A DNA stretch of 39,186 nucleotides from a virus: positions 1 through 39,186 of the IMG/VR virus record IMGVR_UViG_3300021792_000237. One strand, 5' to 3'. Positions within the stretch are counted from its first letter, which is position 1. Every line of letters starts with the position of its first letter. The notes beneath the pieces are model-generated. The model ran no database searches. It saw only the letters and a program-made list of their open reading frames with translations, and was not told the origin of the DNA. Positions 16,699-39,148 of this stretch are shown piece after piece. A program made the position numbers and the translations under genes.

Positions 16699-16761
16699 TA
16701 TGTTGCCCTCAATGGTTGTGAATATGGCTAATGAGTCTTTAAGGTAAGGGGTTTTGTTGAA

Positions 16762-16783: not shown

Positions 16784-16788
16784 GAAAA

Positions 16789-17094: not shown

Positions 17095-17107
17095 TTTTAA
17101 CGAGTCC

Positions 17108-17170: not shown

Positions 17171-17181
17171 TTACACATGTA

Positions 17182-17418: not shown

Positions 17419-17427
17419 TTCTATCTC

Positions 17428-22175: not shown

Positions 22176-22176
22176 G

Positions 22177-23763: not shown

Positions 23764-23782
23764 AGCGCCAGTGTGGCGCTAT
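23762..23782 (-). promoter_or_regulatory. Hairpin enclosing the endolysin start codon
   Basis: ATAGCGCCA (minus, 23782-23774), loop CAC, then TGGCGCTAT (23770-23762): a perfect 9-bp stem. The last AT of the 3' arm are the first two bases of the endolysin ATG (23763-23761). No Shine-Dalgarno is visible upstream. It could restrict lysis gene translation until unfolded. Confidence 0.65.
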
Positions 23783-23790
23783 TTACTGAG

Positions 23791-23812
23791 GGGCTAAATT
23801 AAAGGGTTTTAG
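23791..23812 (-). repeat. 22-bp repeat, copy B (candidate late regulatory site)
   Basis: Identical to 16762-16783. It lies 12 bp after the RES-gene stop (23825) and 27 bp before the endolysin ATG. The minus strand has CTAAA and TTTAG arms separated by 9 bp. Confidence 0.6.
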
Positions 23813-23824
23813 TAAAAAATGGAG

Positions 23825-24640: not shown

Positions 24641-24657
24641 AGTTTCTTCTCCTTATT

Positions 24658-27351
24658 TTAACTGACACAACTTGACGAATTTACCTTTGACTGTGTCTGT
24701 TTTAATTTCATTCCAAACTTCAACTGCACAACGGTACCATTTTTAATACCTCGGTCAATGCGAAGTTTACCGCCTAACGAACGGGCAATATCGTGCATCG
24801 ATTCAAGGCCGGTACCAAAGCGCATAAACTTATCAAAAAAGGCAATTCCTTTACCATCATCTTGTATGGTGATCACAAATTCATCTTTGCTTCGCTTACC
24901 ACTCACTTCAATGTAACGCGCCTCAGCATGTTGCAACGCATTAATAAAAGCATGATTAATAAACGCGTAAATGTCTTGGCTTAGCTTCTCAGGTAAAGCT
25001 TTGCTTCCAAGCGCTAAATTAAACTCAACCTCTGTTTGGCTATATTGCAGTGATGTATTGGCCGAGAGCATCTTAAGGCCATCTTCAAGCGAGGTATTGC
25101 CCAGCGCTCCATGGCTGTACACAACAGGTAATAAAATATCTTTCGCTTCGTCCAGCTGCAGCAGGCCATCGCTTAACTGCAAGTCATTGCCTTGGCATAA
25201 ATGCGAACCCGACACCAATTTTCTAAAGCCCTGACTTAATGCAGTTTGTTGCTTGGTATCACGCATACGTCTAAATACTTCACGCATTTGCTTATGGCGT
25301 TGCAAAAACACAAAAAATACAGCAGCAAACAATAACACCACTAGCACAGCACACACCCACGCAAAGGCATCGCTTTTATAAAAAGAACCTTGAACATTCC
25401 AAACTATGGGAGCGCTTTTAACAAAGTGGCTACCATCTAACGTAGCTCTTACAACTAAGCTATGTTCACCCTCGTTTAACTGGCTAAAGTGAACTACTGG
25501 CTCGTTTAGGTTTATCCAGGCACCGCCATTGTGGCTATATTGATAGTCGTAATATTGAGTAAGTGCATAGTCAAAATTGCTAAAGTGCAACGTCATTTGG
25601 CTAGCTTGTTGTACATCATTTAATGCATTTAAGCTGGCATCATTCACACTCATTAACGACACCAAAACAGGCTTATCGTTTTGCAAGTTCGTATTGCTCA
25701 AACCTAATAACCCATTGTTCGACACCGCATACATAGCGCCGTTATAAGCCATTAAACTATTAGCGCCAAAGTATTGTTTTTCAGTATGAGGAATGGCTAC
25801 AACCGTTTCATCCACCAGCGTAAATAAACCGTTTGTAGTTGCAATGTACAAGCTGCCATTGAACACCGCTAAGTCAGTAATGAACCGAGGGCTTACTAAC
25901 AATTTAAACCCGTTATTGGTTTGCTTATACAGGCCACCACCATAAGCGGCTACATAAACGCTATTATCAAGCATCGTCACTTTACTTACTTTGCCTGCTT
26001 GAGTTGTAAGGCTGTGGCTCATATTACCCGTTTTAACGTTGTACACACTCAAACCTTTGCTAGTACTTATATACAGTAAGTGCTCAAACTTATTGGTTGC
26101 CAGTACTTCATTAGCAGCAAGGCCGCTTTCAACATTCAGTACTTTTTCAATGACCAAGTTATCATCAATCACTATCACGCCTTGGCCACTGGTAGACACA
26201 AGCCAACAGCCAGCAATTTTTTCAATACCTAAAATATAACCATTCGCTAACTGGCTTAACTGCTCGTTTTGCCACACATATAAACCATTTGTAGTGCCAA
26301 CAAGCGTTACTTTATCACTGGCAATACTGGTAATTTCGTTGCTTTGTTCTTGGCTAAGCGCGTTATTTAACGCGTCCATTGCCACGAACTGGCGCTGCAC
26401 AAAGCGATAAACACCCGAATCGGTGCCCATTAATAAACTCTGATTATCTTTACCTAGCACGTTGTATCGACTTACCAGTGGCAGGTTAAACTGATTCAAA
26501 TCTTGAGAAATAATCTCGTATTCATTATCAGCTACAGCCCAAAGGTTTGATTGTGAGTCCGCATAAACACTATTAAAAAACAGCTTACTTTTATTCAAAA
26601 CACCCGATACAAATTGTTTATCGAGCGTTGAATACAAACGCACTTCACCCGCCATAGCCATCGCTAAGTAACTATTTTTGTAAATGGTCATAGCGCTAGG
26701 GGTGGTGTTAAGTGAGGTTTTATGAACTTGTTCTGTGATGAGGTCGTAACTATAAAGCGTTTGTTCGTGGGCTATATATAATCTATCGCCAACAGCGGCA
26801 ATTAACCCTGAATGTATGGGCATTTTTATCAGCTGACGCTGATGGTTTAAATTCAAATGCCAAAGCCCTGTATTGGTTAGTGCGTATACTTGGCCATCGT
26901 GCGATAGCACCTTTAACACAGTTTGCCCAACCAGCGCTTGCAGGTTCCCAGCGCTTTTTTTGCTTAACACCTCAACCCCTTTAGAGGTAGCGGCGTAAAC
27001 ATGCTGGCCATTTACAGCCATATCTTTACTGGTTACTTCGGCAAATTGCTTAACATTGCCTGTTAAAACATCGTAAGCATAAATATGACCATTACTTGCA
27101 GCATACAACATGCTTTTATCTGCATTCGTTGTAAGTGCATATACCCACTGTGCTGGCAGCGCCTCAATTAATGCAAAGTGATAACCATCATATTTATACA
27201 AACCTTCATGGCTAGCAAAATACATAAAGCCATTCTTGCCCTGTACCACTTCAGTCATGTTGTTAGGTGTACTATGCGCACTTGCCCCTGTTGAAAATAG
27301 GCAAAGCACAATGAAAAGTAATCCACCGTATAAACGTGCTTTAACAGACAT
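24658..27351 (-). CDS. Transmembrane sensor with two-component propeller, Y_Y_Y and HATPase domains
   Basis: 897 residues from ATG 27351. Signal peptide ARLYGGLLFIVLCLFSTGASA, a long beta-propeller-type sensor (about 30-570, repeats ending GLY/GLW/GVY), a Y_Y_Y-like domain (about 585-655), one membrane segment (AWVCAVLVVLLFAAVFFVF, about 664-682) and a C-terminal HATPase. The N-box is HAFINALQHA (about 800-809), G1 is DDGKG (831-835) and G2 is GTGLESM (846-852). It should sense a periplasmic signal and signal inward. No normal H-box (E-x-x-R...LHD) is seen in the dimerisation segment (690-785), so it may not be a standard histidine kinase. No response regulator gene is near. An ATG-extended start (27396) would read an Arg-rich palindrome, and TTG at 27357 is a possible alternative. 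Confidence 0.8.
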   Translation of the reverse strand: MSVKARLYGGLLFIVLCLFSTGASAHSTPNNMTEVVQGKNGFMYFASHEGLYKYDGYHFALIEALPAQWVYALTTNADKSMLYAASNGHIYAYDVLTGNVKQFAEVTSKDMAVNGQHVYAATSKGVEVLSKKSAGNLQALVGQTVLKVLSHDGQVYALTNTGLWHLNLNHQRQLIKMPIHSGLIAAVGDRLYIAHEQTLYSYDLITEQVHKTSLNTTPSAMTIYKNSYLAMAMAGEVRLYSTLDKQFVSGVLNKSKLFFNSVYADSQSNLWAVADNEYEIISQDLNQFNLPLVSRYNVLGKDNQSLLMGTDSGVYRFVQRQFVAMDALNNALSQEQSNEITSIASDKVTLVGTTNGLYVWQNEQLSQLANGYILGIEKIAGCWLVSTSGQGVIVIDDNLVIEKVLNVESGLAANEVLATNKFEHLLYISTSKGLSVYNVKTGNMSHSLTTQAGKVSKVTMLDNSVYVAAYGGGLYKQTNNGFKLLVSPRFITDLAVFNGSLYIATTNGLFTLVDETVVAIPHTEKQYFGANSLMAYNGAMYAVSNNGLLGLSNTNLQNDKPVLVSLMSVNDASLNALNDVQQASQMTLHFSNFDYALTQYYDYQYSHNGGAWINLNEPVVHFSQLNEGEHSLVVRATLDGSHFVKSAPIVWNVQGSFYKSDAFAWVCAVLVVLLFAAVFFVFLQRHKQMREVFRRMRDTKQQTALSQGFRKLVSGSHLCQGNDLQLSDGLLQLDEAKDILLPVVYSHGALGNTSLEDGLKMLSANTSLQYSQTEVEFNLALGSKALPEKLSQDIYAFINHAFINALQHAEARYIEVSGKRSKDEFVITIQDDGKGIAFFDKFMRFGTGLESMHDIARSLGGKLRIDRGIKNGTVVQLKFGMKLKQTQSKVNSSSCVS

Positions 27352-27374
27352 AATCAATGCCCCTCTCCTTGGTC

Positions 27375-27394
27375 GGCGCAGCTTAAGCCGCGCC
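27375..27394 (-). promoter_or_regulatory. 20-bp near-perfect palindrome in the sensor gene leader
   Basis: Minus strand GGCGCGGCTTAAGCTGCGCC: arms GGCGC/GCGCC and GCTTAAGC in the centre, with one mismatch pair. It lies between the stop of the secreted-protein gene and AGGAGAGGGG before the sensor start. It is not followed by T, so it is not a terminator. A regulator-binding site or an mRNA hairpin is likely. Confidence 0.5.
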
Positions 27395-27419
27395 ATTTAT
27401 TATTATAAGAGCCTAATTA

Positions 27420-27923
27420 TTAATATTGTACGTGGTTGCGCGTACCACAGAACGACTCAACCGTTGCCTGGTAATCGGGGGTTGCATCGTCACTACTCAC
27501 ACTTTGAGCATCAAGTGTTCGCGCTTGTAACAAGCTTGTTTTAGCCGTTGCTGGTTTTTCCCAATTAATATTTTGGTTGGGTTTAACAATAAGAAAGGTC
27601 GGTTTACGCGGGTCATCAGGGTGTTTTTTTGTGTACCACTGTTGCATCACAAATTCACCGGCTTCCTGTCCGTACATATGCGTGTATGCAGCAGCTAAAA
27701 GCTGAGCGCCACGCTCGTTTGTAATAATCATCCCTGTTGACTCAAACGCTGAGCCACAATCAAAGTTCATATCTACACTTAAGCTACTGCTGTCTGGCAA
27801 CAGTAGCTGAGCTTGCATAGATGAAACACGCGCTCTATCAGGCAAAGGCTCCAAAGCCTGAGTCGCACTCGTAAAGGTAAAAGCGGCTAATGTTAGGGCT
27901 GAAAGTACAATACTTTTTAACAT
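27420..27923 (-). CDS. Secreted protein of the lysogeny operon, unknown family
   Basis: 167 residues from ATG 27923 (MLKSIVLSALTLAAFTFTSA), with GGAG 9 nt upstream; an in-frame ATG at 27938 is less likely. The signal peptide ends near ATQA. Mature part: DRARVSSMQAQLLLPDSS, NFDCGSAFEST and a C-terminal ESFCGTRN, so two cysteines could form a disulfide bond. It lies 15 bp after the repressor stop and before the sensor gene, and is probably co-transcribed with both. A periplasmic partner or ligand-sensor for the propeller domain is my inference; I know no family. Confidence 0.7.
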   Translation of the reverse strand: MLKSIVLSALTLAAFTFTSATQALEPLPDRARVSSMQAQLLLPDSSSLSVDMNFDCGSAFESTGMIITNERGAQLLAAAYTHMYGQEAGEFVMQQWYTKKHPDDPRKPTFLIVKPNQNINWEKPATAKTSLLQARTLDAQSVSSDDATPDYQATVESFCGTRNHVQY

Positions 27924-27938
27924 TGGGTAAAACTCCAT

Positions 27939-28397
27939 TTATGCCAACGTTAGCGCCCCCTTTGCCATAGTTTCAACAAGTGGTTCGCAAAAATCATTTT
28001 CAAAGCAGGCCTTTATTAACACTGGGCGTAACTTGTTGGCCACTGTTAATAATCTATCCGCTGGCAAATTTCTACTATACAACTCCCGTTCTAATATCTT
28101 TTCGACCATATCTAATGCTCGCAAAGCATCATCACTTGTGGGGGCTGCGGCTTTTTGTTTTGTTGAGTCTGCGCTCTTTCCATAAATTAACTCATCTACC
28201 GAGTAACCATATTGAACATACGTCTCAACAATATGGTTAAAAGGCAAATTACCAGAGCGACGACTCGCACTGATACCAGAAGGCGACAAGCCAATCTTAA
28301 TGGACAGTTGCCGATCACTTCCTTCGGTGCCTAATTTTTTATGCAACCTAGAAATAATCGCATCAAATTCAACACGGTTAACTTTATCTGAAATCAT
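27939..28397 (-). CDS. Prophage repressor, CI-type helix-turn-helix, no peptidase domain
   Basis: 152 residues. The DNA-binding part is about 7-60: FDAIISRLHKKLGTEGSDRQ, LSIKIGLSPSGISASRRSGN and YGYSVDELIYG, as in the phage CI repressor HTH family (PF07022). The rest is a helical oligomerisation-like region (DALRALDMVEKILERELY). There is no S24 Ser/Lys peptidase, so RecA-type self-cleavage is not expected, in contrast to lambda. It is divergent from the early regulator gene, over the operator region, and starts the minus-strand operon with the secreted protein, sensor and RES genes. AGG lies 5 nt before its ATG. Confidence 0.8.
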   Translation of the reverse strand: MISDKVNRVEFDAIISRLHKKLGTEGSDRQLSIKIGLSPSGISASRRSGNLPFNHIVETYVQYGYSVDELIYGKSADSTKQKAAAPTSDDALRALDMVEKILERELYSRNLPADRLLTVANKLRPVLIKACFENDFCEPLVETMAKGALTLA

Positions 28398-28536
28398 AAT
28401 ACCTAGTCAATAGATTAAATTTAATATATTTAATTTTAAAATTTAGCTTGACGAATTAAATTTAATTCACTTACATTAAAAAGCGAAGCGCAAGAACTCA
28501 AATTTAATTCACTAAACATTTTAAGGTTAACTTTTT
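28398..28536. promoter_or_regulatory. Immunity/control region between repressor and early genes
   Basis: A 139-bp AT-rich gap between divergent repressor and early regulator genes. Three dyad-like boxes share the core ATTAAATTTAAT (or its right half): 28414-28425, 28455-28466 and 28500-28510 (AAATTTAATTC). Their centres are 41 and 42 bp apart, about four helical turns. A further AATTTTAAAATT palindrome is at 28432-28443. The central box is a perfect 16-bp palindrome, GAATTAAATTTAATTC (28453-28468). Confidence 0.75.
28448..28476 (+). promoter_or_regulatory. Early promoter, plus strand, operator in its spacer
   Basis: TTGACG (28448-28453) and TTACAT (28471-28476) are 17 bp apart, good sigma70 boxes, leading to the plus-strand early regulator at 28537. 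The spacer is the palindrome GAATTAAATTTAATTC, so a bound repressor would block RNA polymerase directly. Confidence 0.7.
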
Positions 28537-28869
28537 ATGATTAAGAAAGCCATTCCCCACGAAGAGATAAAGCAACTTTTAGATCAGAAGGATATAAAGT
28601 TTGCTGATATTGCGAAGGCCAAAAAGGTCAGTGTTTCACTTGTTTCTATGGTTAGCCAACGCAAAAGCCAATCAAAGCCAATTGCACAGGCTATAAGCCA
28701 TTGCTTAAGCCACCCCCTTGAAGAAGTATTTGGTGATGTAGAAGCCTACTTCACTCCGAATAAAAGAGGCCCTAAAGATCGCTCTAAAAGGACCTCTCAA
28801 ATTATTACCGCGTTACGCAAGGGACAGCCCATCCCTCCTGCACACAACTCATTATCGGTCGCCAGTTAA
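28537..28869 (+). CDS. Ner/Cro-like early regulator (small HTH protein)
   Basis: 110 residues. Helix-turn-helix at about 20-45: FADIAKAKKVSVSLVSMVSQ, then KPIAQAISHCLSHPLEEVF, as in Ner-type proteins (Mu Ner, Nlp). The C-terminus is basic (PNKRGPKDRSKR). First gene of the early operon, right after the early promoter, divergent from the repressor. In Mu, Ner turns down both early and repressor transcription (family role). AAGG is 10 nt before the ATG. Confidence 0.75.
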   Translation: MIKKAIPHEEIKQLLDQKDIKFADIAKAKKVSVSLVSMVSQRKSQSKPIAQAISHCLSHPLEEVFGDVEAYFTPNKRGPKDRSKRTSQIITALRKGQPIPPAHNSLSVAS

Positions 28870-28945
28870 AAAAGAACAGGGAAAGGTTTAGGTAATTTTA
28901 ACCCTAAAAATTTCTTTATTTTCAAAACACAGAGGAAAACAAACC

Positions 28946-29368
28946 ATGAACTCAAACAGCATATTAAACGCAGAAGAAGCACCAAATTGTGATGTACGGT
29001 ACTTGTATTTAGCAGCACTAAACAAAGCCATTCAAGATTCTGGCTATTCACGCCCACGCATCGCTGATCGTATGAACGATGCCCTCGCAGGTGATGCCGT
29101 CATTAATGCGGGTAAATTAAATAAGTGGTTAGCGCCTAGTTCAGAGCAGTCAATGCCTATGGAATACCTTTCAGCATTCTGCTGGGCTGTGGGCAATGTC
29201 AGTATTGCCAATGAATTATTAAAACCAATTTTGCATCGTGTATTTGATGAACGCGGCCAAATGCTAGAACAAGCAGCCCGTTACCAACTCGAAGCCGAAG
29301 AACTGCAAAGCAAAGCCAAAAACCTCCTAACCCAAGCCAAAGCTGATCACCCTTCAGCGGTTAACTAA
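28946..29368 (+). CDS. Early protein with HTH-like N-terminal half
   Basis: 140 residues. YLYLAALNKAIQDSGYSRPR, IADRMNDALAGDAVINAGKL and NKWLAPSSEQSMPMEYLSAF (18-84) resemble a helix-turn-helix with a recognition-like loop; the C-terminal half is a coiled coil (EAEELQSKAKNLLTQAK). Similar proteins occur near the transposase of B3-type phages. Its function is not known to me. It is followed by a run of tightly linked small early genes. Confidence 0.6.
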   Translation: MNSNSILNAEEAPNCDVRYLYLAALNKAIQDSGYSRPRIADRMNDALAGDAVINAGKLNKWLAPSSEQSMPMEYLSAFCWAVGNVSIANELLKPILHRVFDERGQMLEQAARYQLEAEELQSKAKNLLTQAKADHPSAVN

Positions 29369-29383
29369 CACAGAGTAAATGCC

Positions 29384-29506
29384 ATGAAAACTGCCCCTAT
29401 CAAAGACCAAAAACCGCCTAAATTTCGCCCGCAAAGCACTAAGACGGTGTTTTTGATGACGATGGAGCAGCTAAAGGCCATAGCCCAAAAGGAATACAGA
29501 TCATGA
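29384..29506 (+). CDS. Small 40-aa early protein
   Basis: Reads MKTAPIKDQKPPKFRPQSTK, TVFLMTMEQLKAIAQKEYRS, then a TGA that overlaps the next ATG (ATGA). Basic, no membrane segment. The ribosome site GAGTAA is about 8 nt upstream. No family is recognised; the overlap makes it likely to be translated. Confidence 0.6.
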   Translation: MKTAPIKDQKPPKFRPQSTKTVFLMTMEQLKAIAQKEYRS

Positions 29507-29748
29507 ATTTACTAACTCAGCCTATTACCACTGAGCAGCTTGATATAAAGGTGTCAACGTTCACTTTGCAGTGCAACTGCTGTAAGCGCACTGAGCACGG
29601 CACCATACCTAGTAAATCCTTTATAGCAGCGGCTAACTATATGGGTTGGCGACAAGTTAAAACCAGCCATATCGACATAGATAGCGCCTGTCCAAGCTGT
29701 GTAAGAGAGCTAAAAGAGTTTTATCAAACTCAGCAGGTGCCAGCATGA
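29503..29748 (+). CDS. Small zinc-ribbon-like early protein
   Basis: 81 residues. CNCCKRTEHG (about 24-33) and CPSCVREL (about 63-70) form two CxxC-type pairs, so it is likely a zinc-bound fold. It overlaps the next gene by 4 bp (ATGA). A nucleic acid or protein contact role is plausible. No named family. Confidence 0.6.
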   Translation: MNLLTQPITTEQLDIKVSTFTLQCNCCKRTEHGTIPSKSFIAAANYMGWRQVKTSHIDIDSACPSCVRELKEFYQTQQVPA

Positions 29749-30053
29749 GCGAACAATACCTATCAACCACCATGCAACGTGGTTTGAACGCTATTAAGGC
29801 GTTAAGTGGTCATGAAGCAGATGGTATGCGCCCTGGCGAACTAGCCAAGCGTATGGGTATCAGCCAACCACAAGCAACGTCAGTTATTAAAAATCTGATC
29901 CATGCAGGTTTTGCTGAGCACTGCCCATGGGACCAAAACAAAGTACGTTTGGGGCCTGCCCTTATCACCATCGCCAACAGCGCACAACTAGCGATTAATC
30001 AGCGTGCTATGCAACTTGAGCAAGATCGTAAAAATTACGGAGCAATCGTATGA
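29745..30053 (+). CDS. IclR-type winged-helix early protein
   Basis: 102 residues. TMQRGLNAIKALSGHEADGM (9-28), RPGELAKRMGISQPQATSVI (29-48), then KNLIHAGFAEHCPW (49-62) and KVRLGPALITIA is the IclR N-terminal winged helix-turn-helix. There is no IclR ligand domain, so it is DNA-binding only. It lies in the early operon, overlapping both neighbours by 4 bp, and may regulate transposition or host genes. Confidence 0.7.
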   Translation: MSEQYLSTTMQRGLNAIKALSGHEADGMRPGELAKRMGISQPQATSVIKNLIHAGFAEHCPWDQNKVRLGPALITIANSAQLAINQRAMQLEQDRKNYGAIV

Positions 30054-30973
30054 CAACCGAATTATCACCCCAAGAACAACAAATCACAGTTGAAACAACA
30101 CAAGTGCTTGCCTCAAAGCAAGATGCGTTAATGCAACTTGGACAAATTCAAGCATTCAATTTTATTGGAAAACTGGTAACGGTTTCCGAATTAAAGATCT
30201 TGCAACAAGTTAAAGACTCTAAGAATTACAAGGGCTTAACTTATAAAGGTGAATCAGGAAAACTGGAAACCGTTTCCACTTGGGATCAATGTTGCGAAAA
30301 GATCTTAGGGATGAGTCGTAAGAGTGTTGATGAACGTCTATTAAACCTTTCTCAATTTGGTGAGGCGTTCTTTGAGCAAGCACAAGCTATGCGTTTAGGC
30401 TATCGCGATTTAAAAGCTCTGCGCCAACTGCCATCAGATGAACAAGCGCTAGTTATCGAATCTGAGGCGGTAGAAACCGGTGATAAAGAGGCGGTAAAAG
30501 ACTTAATTGATGACCTAAAAGCGCAGCACAAAAAAGAGTTAGATGCCGAGAAGCTAAAAACCAAAGAGTTAGACTCACAGCGCCAAGTGGCTATTCGTAT
30601 GCGCGACGAGTACCAAATGAAAGCCATGGACTATCAAACAGAACTTGAAAGCACCAAGTTCAAAGCCGATGCCTGGAAAGACCAAACAAAACACCTGCTA
30701 TTTGAAGCCACTAAGTATGAAAGCAATGCTGTTGAATCACTTAGCCGTTTAATAGCCTTACGAGATCACTTTTTAGATAACGACGATTTATCGCCACACG
30801 TTGTTGAGCACCTTGCTGCTGGTTTACTGCATAGCTTTAAGACCTTAGCAGAAGACTTTGCGCAATCTTGGCTTGAAACATCAAGCATTCTTGAGGGCTA
30901 CCTACCAAAAATGCGCCCAAGCCTTGATGTATTGCAAGAGCTAAACGACAGCGCCATGAGTAACGAGGAGTAA
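30050..30973 (+). CDS. Early coiled-coil protein before the transposase gene, unknown
   Basis: 307 residues. The N-terminal 130 have a DNA-binding-like look (VSTWDQCCEKILGMSRKSVD, ERLLNLSQFGEAFF). Residues about 140-215 form a long charged coiled coil (AQHKKELDAEKLKTKELDSQ). The C-terminus is helical. Proteins of this type precede the transposase gene in B3-like phages. Function unknown. It is separated from the transposase by 5 bp and a ribosome site. Confidence 0.6.
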   Translation: MTTELSPQEQQITVETTQVLASKQDALMQLGQIQAFNFIGKLVTVSELKILQQVKDSKNYKGLTYKGESGKLETVSTWDQCCEKILGMSRKSVDERLLNLSQFGEAFFEQAQAMRLGYRDLKALRQLPSDEQALVIESEAVETGDKEAVKDLIDDLKAQHKKELDAEKLKTKELDSQRQVAIRMRDEYQMKAMDYQTELESTKFKADAWKDQTKHLLFEATKYESNAVESLSRLIALRDHFLDNDDLSPHVVEHLAAGLLHSFKTLAEDFAQSWLETSSILEGYLPKMRPSLDVLQELNDSAMSNEE

Positions 30974-30978
30974 GCATC

Positions 30979-32736
30979 ATGGCTGACGATATTTTACTTG
31001 GTTTTAAACAGCGAATCGAAAACGCAAAGCACGGCGAAAAAGGCAAGATTTTAGCTGAAGCTAAAGAGCGCCTAGGGCTAAGTAAAGATGCCTTCTACCG
31101 TGAGTTAGCAAAACTCGGTTACAGCAGTGGCCGTAAAGCGCGAGCTGACAAAGGCCAAAGCAGCCAAGACCCTGAAAGCCTCGATAAACTAAAAGCCATG
31201 CTGGCTGTAGGCAGCCGTAAAAATGGCAAGCAAATCGTAGAAACGCCAAATGCTATGAGCATTTTAGCGGCCAATGGCTGTGAGTTTAAAAGCGCAAGCA
31301 CAGTGCGTAAGTTATTACGTGAGCAAAACGCCACAGCAAGAATGCTTAACCAAAGCACAGCACATGTGCAGTTACGTAGCCTTTATCCAAACCACGTACA
31401 CCAAGTAGATCCGAGCTTATGCTTAATTTACTACCCGCCTGGTGGCAAAAAAGGCCGTGTTCAGCGCTTTATGAGCGATGACGAGTTTTATAAAAACAAG
31501 CCAGAGAACCTTGAAAAGATAAAGAACCTACGTGTTTGGCGCTATGTTCTTACCGATCATTACTCTGGTGCAGTGCGTGTTCGTTATTACGAAAGCGCGG
31601 GTGAAACCATGGCAAACCTATATGACTTTTTGCTTTGGTGCTGGGGCTTACACAATGATGAAAAGTGCCCAATGCGTGGTTTACCCGACATTTTAGTAAT
31701 GGATAAAGGCTCAGCAAACACCGCTGGGGCTGTTATTCGCGCACTTGATGCACTGAGTGTTGATGTAATTGATCATGAAGTGGGCCGCGCTCGCGCTAAA
31801 GGCCAAGTAGAAAACGCGAATAACTTAGTTGAGAAGCTATTTGAATCACGTTTGATGTTTGAACCTGTAAACAGCGTAGCAGAACTAAACGAACGTGTTA
31901 TTGCATGGCAAAACGCATACAACGCCGACCAAATACCTAACTATTCAGCAAAACATAGCCGCCACGGTAAAGGCCGCTATGAGTTTTGGATGAAACGTAT
32001 GGCACACGGCAAAGTACGTGACCTACCAAGCGAAGACATTTGTCGTTGGTTGCTTACTCATAAAGAAGAAACCCGCACGGTTAAACCAGACCTATCGATC
32101 ACCTTTGTACACCCTACGATTAAACGCAGCCAAAAATATGCGCTTGATGGTTTGGTTGGTATTTACAAAGGCCTAAAAGTACTTGTGCTGCCTATGGCGC
32201 TCTCTGAGCGTGGCGAAATTTTAGTGTACTGCAAGTATCAAGGCGAGCAGCAAATACACACTGTTGCACCAATAGAAGTTGATGATGCGGGCTTTGATAT
32301 TACTGGCGCGGTGATTGGTGAACAAATGAAAGCGCCTAAAGACACCGCCATTGATACTGCTCGTAAACAAGCTGAGCGTGATGCTTACCCTGGCATGAGC
32401 GATGAGCAAATAGCAAAAGCCAAACGCGGCAAAAAAGCGGTGCCTTTTGGTGGTGCACTCGATGCGCATAGCCATTTAAACGAACTGCAAACACCAGACT
32501 TTATGCGTGTTCGTGGTGAGCAAGTTGATACAGGCCTGCAGCAACCAACTAACCGATTAAGCGGTGTTGCTTTACGCAAAGCCATTGTGGCCAAGCGCGG
32601 CACACCAATTACACCCGAAGAAAAAACATACCTTGCTGATCGCAGTATCGAGGCAAGCCAATTACCTAGCTTACTTGACGAGCTAGCAACCTTAGACAAA
32701 CCAAACCACTTAAACGTGGTTAATTTTACCCGTTAG
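30979..32736 (+). CDS. DDE transposase (MuA-like)
   Basis: 585 residues. DDE triad: Asp144 in HQVDPS, Asp242 in LVMDKGSAN and Glu278 in KGQVENANNLVE, with 35 residues between the last two (DDX35E). The N-terminal part (about 1-130) is helical and basic and should bind the end boxes. The region after 330 is a MuA-type barrel and a C-terminal tail. It transposes the prophage for replication and integration. It has the length of a compact B3-type transposase; MuA has 663 residues. All three acidic residues are intact. Confidence 0.93.
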   Translation: MADDILLGFKQRIENAKHGEKGKILAEAKERLGLSKDAFYRELAKLGYSSGRKARADKGQSSQDPESLDKLKAMLAVGSRKNGKQIVETPNAMSILAANGCEFKSASTVRKLLREQNATARMLNQSTAHVQLRSLYPNHVHQVDPSLCLIYYPPGGKKGRVQRFMSDDEFYKNKPENLEKIKNLRVWRYVLTDHYSGAVRVRYYESAGETMANLYDFLLWCWGLHNDEKCPMRGLPDILVMDKGSANTAGAVIRALDALSVDVIDHEVGRARAKGQVENANNLVEKLFESRLMFEPVNSVAELNERVIAWQNAYNADQIPNYSAKHSRHGKGRYEFWMKRMAHGKVRDLPSEDICRWLLTHKEETRTVKPDLSITFVHPTIKRSQKYALDGLVGIYKGLKVLVLPMALSERGEILVYCKYQGEQQIHTVAPIEVDDAGFDITGAVIGEQMKAPKDTAIDTARKQAERDAYPGMSDEQIAKAKRGKKAVPFGGALDAHSHLNELQTPDFMRVRGEQVDTGLQQPTNRLSGVALRKAIVAKRGTPITPEEKTYLADRSIEASQLPSLLDELATLDKPNHLNVVNFTR

Positions 32737-32746
32737 GAGAACCACC

Positions 32747-32980
32747 ATGGGATGCAGTAAAAAACATCAACTACGCAAAGCAGAGCGCGCACCGTTTAAC
32801 GTTGTATCTGGCCGTACACGCACAGTGTACATGGTGCATGTAAAGCTTATTGATGCAAAGCGCTGGACTGAACTTGCCGACGAAAAAGGCCAGTACATTT
32901 TCAATGACGAAAAAGAACGCGACGAGTTTTTTGAGCGCGTACTTGCCACTTATCCAGACCAATACAGGAAGGTTGCCTAA
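32747..32980 (+). CDS. Small 77-aa early protein
   Basis: 77 residues, basic start (MGCSKKHQLRKAERAP), then RTRTVYMVHVKLIDAKRWTEL, DEKERDEFFERVLATYPDQY. It reads as a small alpha/beta protein. It has GGAG before ATG and its stop touches the next ATG (TAATG). Between A and B genes; unknown. Confidence 0.55.
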   Translation: MGCSKKHQLRKAERAPFNVVSGRTRTVYMVHVKLIDAKRWTELADEKGQYIFNDEKERDEFFERVLATYPDQYRKVA

Positions 32981-33252
32981 TGAAAGAACTAACCCTATCA
33001 ACCAAGCAAATCATATCGATTTGTAATTTTGCAGGGATCCGTGTGCAAAACCCGATCTTTATTGGAACTGGTGCATTTACTAGTACTGCTGAAGCGGACT
33101 TCTTAGCAACTGAACACACCCTCACAGTTGATAAACAGGTGCAACTAGAAAACGGTGAGGTTTACCAAGGCTTGACTGTTCACTGCACTGAATATCCTGA
33201 AGAAGGTTATATGCCATTAGAAGAGGTTAATAGTCCGCATGAACGAACCTAA
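32980..33252 (+). CDS. Small 90-aa early protein
   Basis: 90 residues, beta-rich: FAGIRVQNPIFIGTGAFTST, LTVDKQVQLENGEVYQGLTV, then YMPLEEVNSPHERT. No Cys pairs, no membrane segment. It overlaps the transposition ATPase gene by 14 bp. No family recognised; its place between transposase and its ATPase suggests an accessory role only by neighbourhood. Confidence 0.5.
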   Translation: MKELTLSTKQIISICNFAGIRVQNPIFIGTGAFTSTAEADFLATEHTLTVDKQVQLENGEVYQGLTVHCTEYPEEGYMPLEEVNSPHERT

Positions 33253-34522
33253 TGAGCACAAAAAGAAGATCAGCCAAAAGACCTGGAAGATAAAACTAGG
33301 CCGCATGATGGCGAACCGCAATATCACTTACAAGCAATTAGTGCAGTGGTTAGACCTACATGCAGATGTAAAAACCAGCGAAGCAACGCTGAACAAAATT
33401 GTGACTAAGTCTGAATTTCCTAAACGCGAAAAAACCCGCGAAGCAGTTAAACGCGGCCTTGAGCGCTACGCAATTGAGAATGGTTTAGTAACCGAAAGCA
33501 ACGTTTACCAAATCTATTTGGATGATCCACACAGCAATGCAGTAACCACTGGCAGCCAGTGGAAGCATAGCAATAAAACCAGACGCCTGATCATTGGTCA
33601 TGAAGATTCAATTAACGGGCACATTGTATTTGAAACACCGGAGGCAAAAATGCTTACACCACGAGCAAGACAACATTTTAAGGTTCTTAGCGACCCATGG
33701 GATAACGAGATTTACAGCATTGATCACGTTTACTTAGGCACACAGCAACGTTATGTGATTGAGTCAATTATCAACTGTGCAAAAGTTGGTACCTTAATGG
33801 CGATTGTCGGTGAGTGCGGCAGCGGTAAAACAGTGATGATGAACTTTACCATTGAAGAGATACGCGCAAAGCATCCAAACATTCGCGTTATTCGTCCTGC
33901 CCGTATCGATAAAAAACAAATAGCGTCAAACACCATAAGTGAGGCTATTTGTCGTGAGCTGAACATTTCTAAGTTGCCACGTAGTAGCGAAGACCGTGAT
34001 GCAATTATTCGTGAAGAACTAACGCGCAGCTGTAACGCTGGCAACCGCCACATTTTGCTTATTGATGAAGGCCACCGCTTAGATGAAGAAACCATTAAGC
34101 AATTAAAAGTGCTGTGGGAGCTGAGCGAAGGTTTCACTAAGTTAATTGGCATTTGCATCATCGGCCAAACCGAACTCGACAAAGTACTTAACTCAATGAA
34201 CGTGCGCGAATTTGCATACCGTGTAAATAAGCTACAAGTGCCGCCACTTGGCACCGAGTTAAAAGAGTACATCGACCACAAACTTAAAGCCGCCAATCTG
34301 GTACCAGAAAAAGTGATAGAGCCTGCCGCTATCGAAAAGATGCAACAAGCGCTGCGAGGTATTCGCAAGTTTGGCCGCACAACAGGCCGACCGGATGAAA
34401 TGGTTGATATGAGTTATCCACTCAACGTTAACACGCTAATGAAAAACCTAATGAACGAAGCCGCTGATGTAGGTGAAGAGCGTATTACGGCTGAGTTAGC
34501 TGAAGAATACGTGAGGGTTTAG
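33239..34522 (+). CDS. AAA+ transposition ATPase (MuB-like)
   Basis: 427 residues. Walker A GECGSGKT (191-198) and Walker B HILLIDEGH (Asp276, Glu277), in an AAA_22-like domain. The first 120 residues are basic with an HTH-like part (NRNITYKQLVQWLDLHADVK, about 27-46), as in MuB. It binds target DNA and delivers it to the transposase, and it directs immunity from self-insertion (family role). It is longer than MuB (312 residues). The ATG overlaps the 90-aa gene. Confidence 0.9.
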   Translation: MNEPNEHKKKISQKTWKIKLGRMMANRNITYKQLVQWLDLHADVKTSEATLNKIVTKSEFPKREKTREAVKRGLERYAIENGLVTESNVYQIYLDDPHSNAVTTGSQWKHSNKTRRLIIGHEDSINGHIVFETPEAKMLTPRARQHFKVLSDPWDNEIYSIDHVYLGTQQRYVIESIINCAKVGTLMAIVGECGSGKTVMMNFTIEEIRAKHPNIRVIRPARIDKKQIASNTISEAICRELNISKLPRSSEDRDAIIREELTRSCNAGNRHILLIDEGHRLDEETIKQLKVLWELSEGFTKLIGICIIGQTELDKVLNSMNVREFAYRVNKLQVPPLGTELKEYIDHKLKAANLVPEKVIEPAAIEKMQQALRGIRKFGRTTGRPDEMVDMSYPLNVNTLMKNLMNEAADVGEERITAELAEEYVRV

Positions 34523-34524
34523 TC

Positions 34525-35211
34525 ATGGATTCTCGCATTGTTAAAAAAGTTCGTCAGTGTTTAGCGCTTGCCAAACAGGCAACCAATGAGCACGAAGCAG
34601 CTGCGGCTATGCGCCAAGCACAAAACTTAATGCGCAAACATAAGATTAGCGAAAGCGACATTGATTTTAGCTATGTACAGCATGAGCGCGTTGAAACGGA
34701 TTGCAAAAAAGTAGTGAGCTACCACGCTGCTTTATTGCATTTAATCAAGCGTGTATTTGGTGTGCGCTTTGTAATGTCGTCAAGTTTGTTTAGCAATTCT
34801 GAAGTCTCATTTATTGGCATTAACCCGCAACCAGAACTAGCCAAATACTGCTACGAGGTACTTTGGAGCAAGTTAAAACAAACTCGCCAAGAGTATGTAA
34901 AGCAGCAACCTAAACAATGTAAGCGTGCAACAAAAGTAGCGCGAGGCGACCGCTTTGCCGAAGGCTGGGTGTTTGGTATTGCTCGCACGGTTGAAGAATT
35001 CGCCCTTAGCGAAAAAGAAACCAGCATTATTGAGCGCTATATGGCGCAAGAGTTCCCCGACCTAACCAGTTCAGCAACTTTAAAGCGTGGCAAGAAAGCT
35101 AATACCAAAAAAGCTGTACTCGACGGCATAGCTGCAGGCCGTCAAGAGTCTTTGCATCGCCCTGTTAACGGACAAGAGCACCAGAAACTAAACCACAACT
35201 TAGGAGCTTAA
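34525..35211 (+). CDS. DUF2786-family early protein
   Basis: 228 residues. N-terminal DUF2786 pattern: VKKVRQCLALAKQATNEHEA, AAAMRQAQNLMRKHKISESD (positions about 5-45). The middle is a mixed alpha/beta part (LLHLIKRVFGVRFVM...SFIGINPQPELAKYCYEVLW), and the C-terminal part is basic. DUF2786 proteins are common in phages; the function is unknown. Two bp after the ATPase stop. Confidence 0.75.
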   Translation: MDSRIVKKVRQCLALAKQATNEHEAAAAMRQAQNLMRKHKISESDIDFSYVQHERVETDCKKVVSYHAALLHLIKRVFGVRFVMSSSLFSNSEVSFIGINPQPELAKYCYEVLWSKLKQTRQEYVKQQPKQCKRATKVARGDRFAEGWVFGIARTVEEFALSEKETSIIERYMAQEFPDLTSSATLKRGKKANTKKAVLDGIAAGRQESLHRPVNGQEHQKLNHNLGA

Positions 35212-35212
35212 C

Positions 35213-35455
35213 ATGGCCTATTTATCAATTTCTGAGCTTAACAAAGCACTACTAAGCCAGTTAGAAACAGAGAAAGAACGTGCAAAGTACTTGCTTCAGT
35301 TTGAAGTGACTACCCGAAAGGTTGGTATTGAGACTTTGACCCTAAAGCCAATTTTACGAGCCCTTATAGGTGATATTTATTTGCCAGTAACAGGCAATGA
35401 CGCGCAACAAGTTATAAAAGATGCGCGTGCCTGGCTTCAAGAAAAAGCAGCTTGA
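35213..35455 (+). CDS. Small 80-aa early protein
   Basis: 80 residues, helical: LSISELNKALLSQLETEKER, LLQFEVTTRKVGIETLTLKP, then GDIYLPVTGNDAQQVIKDAR. It starts 1 bp after the DUF2786 stop. No family. Acidic and basic residues are balanced, no membrane segment. Confidence 0.55.
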   Translation: MAYLSISELNKALLSQLETEKERAKYLLQFEVTTRKVGIETLTLKPILRALIGDIYLPVTGNDAQQVIKDARAWLQEKAA

Positions 35456-35465
35456 GGAAGTAACC

Positions 35466-35678
35466 ATGAATAGTGCAACAGCCCAAATAAGCACTCAACG
35501 TTTTACCCATTCTACCGCGCCAACAATTTATACCATTGCACAACTTACTGAGCTGGTTAATGGCGAGATTTTATCGGGCCGTAAGCAAGATGCGCTTAAT
35601 ACCTTAGCGCAATTGCAAGATGCGACCCACAAACTTGAAAACCAAATCCATAATATGAAGGATGAAAGCCATGGCTAA
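35466..35678 (+). CDS. Small 70-aa early protein before Gam
   Basis: 70 residues from ATG 35466 (MNSATAQIS), GAGGAAG in front; an in-frame ATG at 35421 lies inside the previous gene and lacks a signal. The end is a helix (ALNTLAQLQDATHKLENQIH). It overlaps the Gam start by 8 bp. Unknown. Confidence 0.55.
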   Translation: MNSATAQISTQRFTHSTAPTIYTIAQLTELVNGEILSGRKQDALNTLAQLQDATHKLENQIHNMKDESHG

Positions 35679-36225
35679 ACAACCAAACCGCCGCGTAAAG
35701 TCAGACGATATGCTGTCTGTGAGCAGCTCAGAAGAACTCGAGCAAACGATTTTTCGGATTGGCCAATTGCAAACCGAACTAGAAATTGCCACAGCTCACA
35801 CGAACCAAACTATTGAAGATGCCAAAGCGTCTTTAAAAGATAAAACAACGGCGATCAACAACGAAATTAAAGTACTGAGTAAATCAGCACAAATTTTCTT
35901 TACCGCAAACCAGCAAGACATAGTACCTGCAGGTAAAAAGTCGCGTGTATTTGATGTAGGCGAAATTGGCACTCGTACACCACCGTTATCAGTAACAGTG
36001 AAGAACGGGCAAGATGTGATTGACGCTCTTAAAAAGCTACAAGAACAACTTAAGCTATCAGATCTACTAAGCGTTAAAACATCCGTTAATAAACCTGGTC
36101 TTATCAAGCACCGTGAAAAAATTAAAGATATTCCAGGCATCACATTTAACCAAAAAGAACAGTTCTTTATTAAACCTGTTCATGTGCCTATTGAGCATCT
36201 AACTGAAACGGAGCAACCAGCATGA
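35671..36225 (+). CDS. gam: Gam-like DNA end-protecting protein
   Basis: 184 residues from ATG 35671 (MAKQPNRRVK), with AAGGA 8 nt upstream; an ATG at 35662 is a poorer choice. The Gam-family pattern is visible: a long N-terminal coiled coil (LEQTIFRIGQLQTELEIATA), then KSRVFDVGEIGTRTPPLSVT, VIDALKKLQ, and a C-terminal SVNKPGLIKHREKIKDIPGI. Mu Gam binds DNA ends and blocks host exonucleases (RecBCD). Length near Mu Gam (174 residues). It has the Mu early-operon position. Confidence 0.85.
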   Translation: MAKQPNRRVKSDDMLSVSSSEELEQTIFRIGQLQTELEIATAHTNQTIEDAKASLKDKTTAINNEIKVLSKSAQIFFTANQQDIVPAGKKSRVFDVGEIGTRTPPLSVTVKNGQDVIDALKKLQEQLKLSDLLSVKTSVNKPGLIKHREKIKDIPGITFNQKEQFFIKPVHVPIEHLTETEQPA

Positions 36226-36398
36226 GTACTGAAACATTTAAAGTGCGTGTGAATGGTGGAGCTATGTTTTCGTCTCCCTCATATAAAAAATCGCTTAAGA
36301 GTTTCAACAAAGCAAAAATCAATAATGCAGGATCAAAGGTTGAGTTTATTAAAGAGGAAACCTTAGCAGTGCATCAACCCATTAGCCAATCTGCTTAA
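36222..36398 (+). CDS. Small 58-aa early protein
   Basis: MSTETFKVRVNGGAMFSSPS, then YKKSLKSFNKAKINNAGSKV, ending HQPISQSA. Start overlaps the Gam stop (ATGA) with GGAG in front. Basic, no motif. Unknown, but likely translated as part of the early operon. Confidence 0.6.
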   Translation: MSTETFKVRVNGGAMFSSPSYKKSLKSFNKAKINNAGSKVEFIKEETLAVHQPISQSA

Positions 36399-36404
36399 CG
36401 ATTA

Positions 36405-36420
36405 GCCGCCTTCGGGCGGC
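36405..36420 (+). promoter_or_regulatory. Stable GCCGCC-TTCG-GGCGGC hairpin inside the early operon
   Basis: A perfect 6-bp GC stem with a TTCG (UUCG) tetraloop in the gap after the 58-aa gene. It is followed by CTTGGAGGACC and ATG 36433, not by a T-run, so it is not a full terminator. It may stabilise an mRNA end or tune the next gene. Confidence 0.65.
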
Positions 36421-36432
36421 CTTGGAGGACCA

Positions 36433-36627
36433 ATGAATACTATAAATAAAGGCGACAAGGTTTCATTCGTTACGAGTAGACAAACTGGTCGTAGTTATCA
36501 CATATCCAAAAAAGAAGGCAAAGTCCTGCAGATAGATGAAGTTAAAGGCACTTGCTATATCGAATATAGAAAACGCTTATATGTTAGGAATCTAGATGCA
36601 GTTGCACTAGTAAGGTCTGCATCATGA
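36433..36627 (+). CDS. Small 64-aa early protein, SH3-like
   Basis: 64 residues, beta-rich and basic: INKGDKVSFVTSRQTGRSYH, SKKEGKVLQIDEVKGTCYIE, YRKRLYVRNLDAVAL. The strand pattern resembles a KOW/SH3-type fold, a weak impression. GGAGG lies 7 nt before ATG. It overlaps the next ATG (ATGA). Confidence 0.6.
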   Translation: MNTINKGDKVSFVTSRQTGRSYHISKKEGKVLQIDEVKGTCYIEYRKRLYVRNLDAVALVRSAS

Positions 36628-37307
36628 AAAAGTTAATTCAATTAATCCAAATTGCTAAGCGTGATCTGAATATGGAAGACGATGTTTATCGCGCCAACTT
36701 AAAAGCTTGGGCTGGTTGTGACAGCACCACTCAAATGGATAAAAAGCAGTTAGACAAAGTAATCAAAGGCATGGAAAAGCTCGGCTTTAAAAAGCAAAAA
36801 CCTGTTCGCCGTAAAGTTGACCAGGCATTACTTGATAAAGAGCCATTACTTAAAAAGCTTGGTCAAGTTTGGACAGTAATGAAAGCCCATAAGTTGATCG
36901 AGAACGGGAGTTACATTGCTCTTGAAAAGTGGGCTGCTAAGCAATCAAAAGGCTTAAATGATGGCAAAGAGATTGAGCGACTAGATTGGATGGTACCAAT
37001 AGCTAACCAGTTAATTGAGCGCCTTAAACGCTACCACTTACGCTTAATGAAACAAGCAATGATGGTTAAGATCCCCGCTGTTTTACGCTACTACAAAGAG
37101 CTAAAAACAGATGAGCTTGATGAACCTAGCGAAATGTTTGCTATTCAAACCAAGTTACAAGCTAGCCGTTTAAATATGCCTATACACATGCAACGTGTTC
37201 GCTATTTAGACTTACTACAAGCTTATGAAGACTGCAACGAGTTTATTCGCCGCTTTGGTAAGTCTTCAGATGACATAAAGGGAGTTAGTAATGCAAAAGC
37301 TCGCTAA
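36624..37307 (+). CDS. Mu gp16/GemA-like protein (DUF1018)
   Basis: 227 residues. LIQIAKRDLNMEDDVYRANL, then KAWAGCDSTTQMDKKQLDKV and IKGMEKLGFKK is the DUF1018 signature. The middle has WTVMKAHKLIENGSYIALEK. Mu gp16/GemA modulates host gene expression. The C-terminus is basic. The gene before Mor in Mu-type phages, as here, 2 genes upstream. Overlap with both neighbours. Confidence 0.8.
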   Translation: MKKLIQLIQIAKRDLNMEDDVYRANLKAWAGCDSTTQMDKKQLDKVIKGMEKLGFKKQKPVRRKVDQALLDKEPLLKKLGQVWTVMKAHKLIENGSYIALEKWAAKQSKGLNDGKEIERLDWMVPIANQLIERLKRYHLRLMKQAMMVKIPAVLRYYKELKTDELDEPSEMFAIQTKLQASRLNMPIHMQRVRYLDLLQAYEDCNEFIRRFGKSSDDIKGVSNAKAR

Positions 37308-37785
37308 ATGCCCGCATTGTCGTGGTCTATTAGATATATCTGCAGTAGCTATTAATAAAGCATCTGACGAGCTGCTTTGCATTTATACAGCATTACCAGG
37401 TCAAGCAAGTGCTGCGCTTGCTAATTATGTTCAATTGTTTACGCCTGATAAGTCAGACCTATCGAGCGCTAGACAATTAAAAATTAGCAAAGATGTTATT
37501 GAGCTAACCAAAGAGTTTGATTTAGCAGTATTCACCCAGTCATTAAACATTACCGTTACGAGTATTCGTGATCATTGGCAACGCCATGGCTATCGACGTA
37601 TGGGTGATGATCATGCCTACCTTAAAAAGGTGCTTGAGACTGAGCAGCAAAAGTTTATTAAAAGCCACCCTCAGCAAACCGTTGTATCTGCTAACAAGTC
37701 AATCGAAGTAAGAACCGAACGACCAGAAACGTTAGAAGAGTCAACCCGCAAGTGGCAAGAGAATATAGCAAAATACCGGAGGTAA
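37291..37785 (+). CDS. Zinc-ribbon early protein of unknown function
   Basis: 164 residues. Starts MQKLAKCPHCRGLLD, a CxxC knuckle; a second Cys lies near 30 (LLCIYTALPGQASAAL). The middle has FTQSLNITVTSIRDHWQRHG, a helix-turn-helix-like segment (about 78-100), and a helical charged C-terminus. Overlaps gp16-like by 17 bp, and ends 1 bp before the Mor-family gene. Unknown. Confidence 0.55.
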   Translation: MQKLAKCPHCRGLLDISAVAINKASDELLCIYTALPGQASAALANYVQLFTPDKSDLSSARQLKISKDVIELTKEFDLAVFTQSLNITVTSIRDHWQRHGYRRMGDDHAYLKKVLETEQQKFIKSHPQQTVVSANKSIEVRTERPETLEESTRKWQENIAKYRR

Positions 37786-37786
37786 C

Positions 37787-38125
37787 ATGAGTGGCAAAGC
37801 GCAAACAGCTGAAACTCTATTAGTACTCCTTGACTCGATAGAACGTAAGCTTTTAGAGAATAAAGTCGATGAAGAACAAGCTACAAAATTGGCAACGTTA
37901 ATAGTCGATGACTTTCGCCACCAGTGTGGTGGTATGAGTGTTTATATCCCTAAAGGTGTTGGGCTTGATGCCATACTTAAGCACAACCAAATTTACCAAG
38001 ACTTTCGCGGTAATAATCACACAGAGCTTGCTAAGAAATATGGATATTCTGAACAACGCATCTATCAAATTGTTCGGGCCATACATGCAGCTGAATCCAA
38101 GCGCATACAACCTGAGCTGTTCTAA
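37787..38125 (+). CDS. mor: Mor-family late transcription activator
   Basis: 112 residues. The C-terminal helix-turn-helix: LAKKYGYSEQRIYQIVRAIH (about 83-102), and the N-terminal dimerisation part (LVLLDSIERKLLENKVDEEQ). GVGLDAILKHNQIYQDFRGN is the family's middle motif. Mor (and the related C) activates the middle/late promoters in Mu; here only one such gene is present, so it should act on late promoters itself. Last gene of the early operon, followed 10 bp later by a terminator. Size fits Mu Mor (129 residues). Confidence 0.85.
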   Translation: MSGKAQTAETLLVLLDSIERKLLENKVDEEQATKLATLIVDDFRHQCGGMSVYIPKGVGLDAILKHNQIYQDFRGNNHTELAKKYGYSEQRIYQIVRAIHAAESKRIQPELF

Positions 38126-38135
38126 CCAACCAATT

Positions 38136-38156
38136 AGCCCCGCAAGGGGCTTTTTT
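38136..38156 (+). terminator. Rho-independent terminator after the early operon
   Basis: AGCCCC (38136-38141), loop GCAA, GGGGCT (38146-38151), then TTTTTT. It ends the early transcript 11 bp after the Mor gene. Confidence 0.9.
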
Positions 38157-38239
38157 ATGGCAAAAATTAACCTGAATTTTCCCTGTTGTTTTTTTATTCA
38201 AGTGATAATTTACTTTAAATATCTTAAACTAAGTGCAGC

Positions 38240-38254
38240 TGTACAATATGTACA
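38240..38254. promoter_or_regulatory. TGTACA-ATA-TGTACA dyad upstream of the lipoprotein gene
   Basis: Two TGTACA palindromes separated by ATA, in the promoter region of the lipoprotein gene (ATG 38286). This is a common form of operator; the regulator is not identified. A separate promoter is needed here because the early terminator is upstream. Confidence 0.45.
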
Positions 38255-38285
38255 ACTACATTAACTACAATAAATGGAACTATAT

Positions 38286-38987
38286 ATGTTTTTGTCAAAA
38301 TCAAATTGGAAACCAACTTTAGCCATTGCATGTGCAGCTGTTCTTAGTGGATGCGCCTCCCCAGATTACAACTATATCCCAGTGTCGACTCAAATTAGTG
38401 AGCCTGCAATTGACAGTGTAAACATTGCGTATGTCGGCGATGTCATGCTCAGACAGGGGAAATACTCAGAACATGATGCTATATATTTACCTTATAAAGT
38501 AGAAGTTAGTTGGGCGTATGACCTACATGCTGGCTATTACATTAAGAAGGGAGAAGATAAAGACACTGAAACCTACATGCCGAGTAATGACAACGAAGGT
38601 GGTATGGTAGATAAAGCCGCTATTGCAGATCCTTGGAGAGCAGTAATGGCTTATAAAGGCACACAAGAACTTTGTGTGATAACTGCTTTTAACGCAGCTT
38701 CATGTACAGATAATGCAAACTTTGAGAGACGTAAAAAACCTATCTTGACGCATGACTCTTTTCAGCAGACATTAATTTATAGCGGTAAGGTTGGTAGTAA
38801 AGTAAACATCGGCTATCGTGAGTTTTCAAATAGTCACGCAAGACCTGCGTTTAATAACGATGTGGAATACGATCTAGACTCTTCAAAAGTGATTGGCTAC
38901 AAAGGTGCGAGAATTGAGATCATCGAAGCAACAAACGAACATATAAAGTATAAGGTAATACAAAACTTCAATAAGGCTGCAATTTAG
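38286..38987 (+). CDS. Outer-membrane or periplasmic lipoprotein, probable moron
   Basis: 233 residues from ATG 38286 (MFLSKSNWK). Signal peptide with lipobox LSGC (AVLSGCASP, Cys about 23), so it is processed by signal peptidase II. The mature part is mixed, with VSWAYDLHAGYYIKKGEDKD, KGTQELCVITAFN and GYREFSNSHARPAFNN. It lies after the early terminator, between it and the right end, so it has its own promoter and can act in lysogeny. Phage lipoproteins at such places often block superinfection; that is an inference. Unknown family. An upstream in-frame ATG at 38274 is possible. Confidence 0.7.
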   Translation: MFLSKSNWKPTLAIACAAVLSGCASPDYNYIPVSTQISEPAIDSVNIAYVGDVMLRQGKYSEHDAIYLPYKVEVSWAYDLHAGYYIKKGEDKDTETYMPSNDNEGGMVDKAAIADPWRAVMAYKGTQELCVITAFNAASCTDNANFERRKKPILTHDSFQQTLIYSGKVGSKVNIGYREFSNSHARPAFNNDVEYDLDSSKVIGYKGARIEIIEATNEHIKYKVIQNFNKAAI

Positions 38988-38996
38988 ATTTTATTC

Positions 38997-39022
38997 GGTG
39001 GGCATTAGCAATATTGCCCGCC
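38997..39022. other. GC-rich hairpin after the lipoprotein gene
   Basis: GGTGGGCA (38997-39004) and TGCCCGCC (39015-39022) form an 8-bp stem with one wobble pair. It starts 9 bp after the stop codon. No T-run follows, so it may act as a weak terminator or an mRNA end protector. Confidence 0.45.
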
Positions 39023-39030
39023 TCTCCAAA

Positions 39031-39047
39031 CTTTCAATATTTGAAAG
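39031..39047. repeat. 17-bp palindrome near the right end
   Basis: CTTTCAA-TAT-TTGAAAG, perfect arms of 7 bp. It lies 50 bp inside the right terminal repeat and beside the ATCCC boxes. Possible binding site; no partner is known. Confidence 0.5.
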
Positions 39048-39062
39048 ACTGTTTAAAATGTT

Positions 39063-39097
39063 ATCCCACTAAATCCCAAGTCATCCCAGCCTATCCC
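39063..39097 (+). repeat. Four ATCCC boxes with exact 10-bp period
   Basis: ATCCC starts at 39063, 39073, 39083 and 39093, each followed by A, A, A and G. All four lie on the same face of the helix, just inside the right terminal repeat. No such array is seen at the left end. Confidence 0.8.
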
Positions 39098-39142
39098 GTA
39101 TTTTTCGCGATTTTTATTATTTAGTTTTCTTAACTTGGATCA
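39097..39142 (-). repeat. Right terminal inverted repeat of the prophage
   Basis: Read inward from 39142 it starts TGATCCAAG and has GAAAACT and AAAATCGCGAAAAAT at the same distances as the left end. 32 of 46 positions match. Ends with CA on the plus strand. Confidence 0.9.
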
Positions 39143-39148
39143 CAAAAA
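39143..39148. repeat. Target site duplication, right copy (CAAAAA)
   Basis: CAAAAA directly after the terminal CA of the prophage, the same as 720-725. It merges with the A-run of the host terminator. Confidence 0.85.

Follow-up and report, generated by a model that had tools for sequence, protein, structure and literature searches.

Why would a transposable phage carry a row of evenly spaced sequence boxes at one of its ends? We addressed this question in a 39,186-nucleotide stretch of viral DNA (the window; IMG/VR record IMGVR_UViG_3300021792_000237) that holds a complete phage inserted in host DNA. The element (726..39142, with TGAT...ATCA ends) is a Mu-like transposable phage: it encodes a DDE transposase (phrog_310; 30979..32736, plus strand), a MuB-like transposition ATPase (phrog_296/AAA_22; 33239..34522, plus strand), a Mor-family late activator (37787..38125, plus strand), Gam, GemA and a portal protein, and it has TG...CA ends and a target-site duplication. 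We placed the right terminus at 39142 (...GGATCA) because six close relatives diverge right after this sequence, and the left terminus at 726, beginning TGATGCAAG, because the left end of one relative (G010) likewise starts with TGATGCAAG. The duplication, CAAAAA, occupies 720..725 and 39143..39148. It is 6 bp long, as in G010 (CTTATT on either side), whereas that of Mu is 5 bp. Read from the outside inward, both termini start with TGAT and share the site AAAATCGCGAAAAAT at nt 29-43 (754..768, plus strand, at the left end; 39100..39114, minus strand, at the right end), a candidate transposase-binding site.

The host DNA around the element has features of its own. Several close relatives, as the right ends of L038, L080 and L195 show, are inserted at points no more than about 10 bp apart in the same host sequence (CCAAACGCAAAAAAGCCCGACTC...; 39143-39177 in the window), which marks an insertion hot spot directly before a terminator hairpin. 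The left host flank contains a 35-nt direct repeat (539-573 and 662-696; 94% identical).

The original prediction described four ATCCC boxes with an exact 10-bp period near the right end, and the boxes indeed start on the plus strand at exactly 39063, 39073, 39083 and 39093. Read on the minus strand, this putative pac-like array (39063..39097) consists of four GGGAT boxes in exact 10-bp steps, with GGGAT reading inward, at nt 46-80 from the right terminus. It adjoins the inner side of the 15-nt shared site AAAATCGCGAAAAAT at this end only. A search for three boxes in 10-bp steps with at most one mismatch returned two overlapping places in the window, both within the array, and a mean of 0.00 places in 100 shuffles. 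The window as a whole contains 23 ATCCC and ten GGGAT motifs. None of either occurs at the left end (726-1125), which agrees with the earlier statement that nothing similar exists there.

The array is intergenic, lying 3' of the stop codon of the last plus-strand ORF (38274-38987), the spacers between its boxes are not identical, and an Rfam search of the region returned no RNA match. It belongs to no coding sequence and to no host repeat, either of which the original prediction had named as grounds against a binding array. The 17-bp palindrome reported beside the boxes is present just inside the array (39031..39047; CTTTCAATATTTGAAAG), but it is imperfect, with three positions mismatched against its own reverse complement. 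Many relatives carry a similar, loosely palindromic flank (about TTcAC....TGnAA....TTTnCA; 39031-39062 in the window), and this conserved flank may belong to the array site.

The same arrangement was found at the ends of isolate phages. At the left end of Mu (NC_000929, nt 33-67), the boxes GGGAG, TGGAT, GGGAT and GGGAT start at nt 33, 43, 53 and 63, with 18 of 20 letters matching. As in the window, there are four boxes in 10-bp steps near the terminus of one end, with GGGAT reading inward, in a phage that has a gp27-family small terminase and a phrog_310 transposase. Unlike those of the window, the Mu boxes are imperfect and begin at nt 33 rather than nt 46, and the transposase genes point in different directions, away from the array in Mu and toward it in the window. 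Arrays were likewise present in SfMu (18/20, nt 33), Vibrio phage 1.028.O (17/20, nt 40) and the Pseudomonas phages B3 (17/20) and JBD25 (18/20). The B3 and JBD25 left-end arrays start at nt 45, have Mor and GemA genes adjoining and, as in the window, have the transposase reading toward them, although the JBD25 transposase is only about 32% identical to that of the window.

We built a unit profile from 28 arrays, including those of Mu, B3, JBD25 and 1.028.O; its information was concentrated at TCCC. Among phages outside the training set, the profile scored 29.5 in Faecalibacterium phage Mushu (left end, starting at nt 30), 23.8 in Komp_PAO1_1, 20.7 in POA1180 (scanned except for 1.7 kb at 20001-21655), 14.4 in Bise (from nt 46) and, weakly, 10.8 in PhiKM. 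Mushu differs from the window phage in its Firmicute host and in two of its boxes, which are TTCCC and CTCCC. PMC5883640 describes Mushu virions as carrying host DNA at both ends. A separate scan of Vibrio phage martha gave a best value of 13 and no array; we excluded this phage from the counts because its record ends inside an annotated gene and may not reach the phage end.

Which protein accompanies the array? The window phage encodes a small terminase (21600..22310, minus strand; phrog_426, Pfam Phage_Mu_Gp27), which we propose as the reader of the array, and a large terminase (19909..21600, minus strand; phrog_2). phrog_426 was found in 16 of the 21 isolate phages checked. A clear array was present in 9 of these 16, and an end array in none of the five without phrog_426, namely D3112, RcapMu, SuMu, KS10 and hankyphage (the hankyphage scan covered its leftmost 700 bp). 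D3112 gave a single internal profile match, of 16.5 bits at 28606. D3112, RcapMu and SuMu all carry the full phrog_310 transposase. Some phages had no clear array in the profile scan despite having phrog_426: AFS-2018a scored 1.7 and YPCBV-1 scored -5.3, and BalMu-1, RhkS_P1, ThpS-P1 and StopSmel had no array exceeding the control steps.

The comparison of related ends that the original prediction had suggested thus showed the array to be conserved in related phages. Loss of the array from related active phages, which the prediction had said would count against it, was seen only in phages lacking the gp27-family terminase and in some distant ones, namely the six array-less phages with phrog_426 named above.

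Searches of solved structures with the small terminase gave a best E value of 0.43. Its AlphaFold model was of modest quality (pLDDT 67), and Foldseek returned nothing significant with it; the top row, a telomere-repeat-binding protein at E 1.4, is not evidence.

We also assembled prophages found by their transposase alone, comprising 49 loci (among them L195, a second occurrence of the phage in the window) and 25 more. The latter came from 35 transposase places in 321 genomes of one class, after two duplicates and eight weaker places had been dropped. The search zone was the one predicted by terminase orientation, and seven step lengths were compared. Steps of 10 bp came out strictly ahead of the six others in 32 of 51 loci with a gp27-family terminase (p=2.6e-15); among the 23 loci without a detected one, they did so in 7 (p=0.037). 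For the latter group the scan covered both sides and retained the better, which biases the figures in its favour. Scores of at least 16.5 were reached at the 10-bp step in 23/51 and 5/23 loci, respectively; the best of the six control steps reached this score in 1/51 and 1/23. For three of the five high-scoring loci without a detected terminase (L235, L243 and G361), the genome does hold phrog_426, in G361 on another contig. In the other two, L225 and L238, both from metagenome-assembled genomes (MAGs), no phrog_426 was found despite the array. The L238 genome, a Desulfovibrio MAG with a strong array (16427-16461) and a Mu-type transposase, had no detectable large terminase (phrog_2) either; it could be an incomplete MAG, a remnant or a satellite.

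When viral contigs were scanned for four exact boxes, 104 stretches were returned, many of which were simple head-to-tail 10-mers. On visual inspection we picked 50 records whose arrays looked non-repetitive or were located close to an end, and the Mu-type transposase phrog_310 was found in 42 of them. From the other 54 records, 50 (mostly simple 10-mer repeats) were tested and five had phrog_310, four being close relatives of the window. Overall, phrog_310 was present in 47 of the 100 pattern-bearing records tested, a set that leaves out L099, L102, L103 and L105. Some arrays lie near tRNA genes, which raised the idea that the boxes are arm sites of a tyrosine integrase. We rejected this idea because a tyrosine-recombinase match (PF00589) was found in 9 of the 50 picked records, against 42 with the Mu transposase. 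Two records, L059 (59-93) and L095 (442-476), have four-box arrays about 60 nt from an apparent tRNA 3' end and no detected phrog_310; we regard these as a different kind of element.

We compared gene positions around the array among the array-bearing viral records with a transposase. The transposase lay on the inward side of the array in 41 of 42 records; in 23 its gene points away from the array, and in 18 the gene points toward it. The large terminase read away from the array at 35 of 40 places. Of the exceptions, G001, G027 and G044 have their late genes ordered differently, G030 has no phrog_310 match, and in G018 a second, far-away terminase is involved. These positions and orientations tie the array to the terminus rather than to a gene. 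When 27 opposite ends were scanned with the profile, none reached 14 bits, so the one-sidedness noted in the window extends to other phages. We examined the distance to the contig end as a proxy for the virion flank and then dropped it because assemblies mix prophages and virions. Nor do we take the 44-bp right host flank of the record as proof of packaging from the array end.

What, then, does the array do? We consider it likely that packaging of this Mu-type transposable phage is initiated at the four boxes, which would form its pac site, and the "right" end of the window is best read as the counterpart of the Mu left end. The array is confined to one terminus, no more than about 100 bp away from it, and carries the motif of the Mu left end, and the phage encodes both a gp27-family small terminase and a large terminase. 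The Mu boxes also coincide with what we take to be the Mu pac interval, about nt 32-58 of the left end. According to PMC5977238, the left side is where Mu packaging begins, taking along 50-150 bp of the adjoining host DNA, and the Pseudomonas aeruginosa phages studied there have 31-36 bp of host DNA at the left end; the corresponding flank of hankyphage is given as 29-31 bp in PMC12135933. The position of the Mu boxes and the packaging of Mu from the left support the pac reading. So do the same end array in SfMu, B3, JBD25, 1.028.O, Mushu, Komp_PAO1_1, POA1180 and Bise, the one-end-only placement, the inward location of the transposase in 41 of 42 records whichever way its gene points, the presence of a different site shared by both window ends, the 10-bp preference in prophages with a gp27-family terminase, and the lack of an end array in phages without phrog_426.

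Under the pac reading, the four boxes, placed turn by turn on the same side of the double helix, would be the docking place for an oligomer of the gp27-family small terminase (21600-22310). The docked protein would position the large terminase for a cut in the adjoining host DNA, immediately beyond the array end. Packaging would then proceed from that end across the entire phage genome and stop at a full head, and the opposite end would therefore carry a longer, variable host tail. PMC4737164 describes small terminases as ring-shaped assemblies of helix-turn-helix domains with a selectivity for bent DNA, and a spacing of one box per helical turn would fit such an assembly.

The original prediction had suggested an end-specific array bound by the transposase, its ATPase or a host factor, giving the two ends different roles. 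The end-specificity of the array and its conservation in relatives are borne out, and an array that sets the two ends apart fits the pac reading; the choice of binder is probably wrong. We think it unlikely that the array is an end-specific transposition element of the Mu-left type, in which extra contacts of transposase, MuB or HU between the first and second transposase sites would assign the ends distinct roles within the transpososome. Its place directly inside AAAATCGCGAAAAAT, its occurrence at one end only and the position of the Mu boxes, presumably between left-end transposase sites, would all suit such an element. However, Mu transposase end sites of the L1-L3 and R1-R3 type need inverted copies at both ends, and the array has no such copy; AAAATCGCGAAAAAT, which is present at both ends, is the better candidate, leaving no need for the transposase to use the array. 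D3112, RcapMu and SuMu have a Mu-family transposase and yet no array at their ends, the array is kept with very divergent transposases in two gene orientations, and the small terminase tracks it better. The array also coincides with the presumed Mu pac interval. The ATPase and a host factor are not favoured as binders either.

A host-factor array that marks or bends the end (through HU, IHF or another nucleoid protein) seems very improbable to us: G tracts phased with the helix could bend DNA, but the same core occurs in phages of Proteobacteria and of Faecalibacterium, and within one host species the array is present in B3 and missing from D3112. We give just as little credence to a transcriptional element serving the early operon that ends at 38987, whether as operator, anti-terminator or terminator region. 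The array does lie between genes, 3' of the last early-strand gene, but the split of transposase directions (23 away, 18 toward) means that its position is conserved relative to the terminus and not to transcription, and no Rfam family matched it. Chance or a simple tandem repeat, which the many head-to-tail 10-mers among the 104 pattern matches might suggest, can be dismissed almost entirely. The box spacers differ, 0.00 places are expected per window, the array recurs at the same place across phages, and its conservation at phage ends was seen in transposase-found prophages; the shuffles and the prophage test rule out a microsatellite.

Several observations count against the pac reading. Phages with phrog_426 and no clear array exist, as do the L238 and L225 arrays without detected phrog_426. 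Phages of the D3112 group and hankyphage package a short left host flank without such an array, and the terminase and the array could simply be co-inherited. In SPP1/SF6, as in the model proposed here, a helix-turn-helix ring reads a pac region with direct repeats, and bent DNA has been proposed (PMC4737164). Unlike the array, that pac region spans the start of the small-terminase gene and three repeat sets, and the same paper reports that repeat boxes did not drive binding by the isolated small-terminase domain and were not needed for it.

More broadly, these phages might share one pac code in phase with the helix, (A/G/T)TCCC repeated four times at one copy per turn, read by gp27-family small terminases from Proteobacteria to Firmicutes. 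Such a code would fix the first-packaged end whatever the gene layout, and elements that bear it without a terminase, such as L238, may be satellites packaged in trans; we hold the chances for and against this proposal to be even. The phased boxes were not described in the titles and abstract openings of the literature searched, a set without subscription papers on Mu packaging. The Mu pac site itself is already known, and as far as the searched literature shows, the novelty lies in the sequence code that these phages have in common and in how far it extends. The array would offer a minimal 35-bp target for studying how a small-terminase oligomer recognises DNA. A Mu-type pac site defined by sequence would allow us to predict which end of a prophage is packaged first, and knowing that end would in turn indicate which side's host genes enter the long tail.
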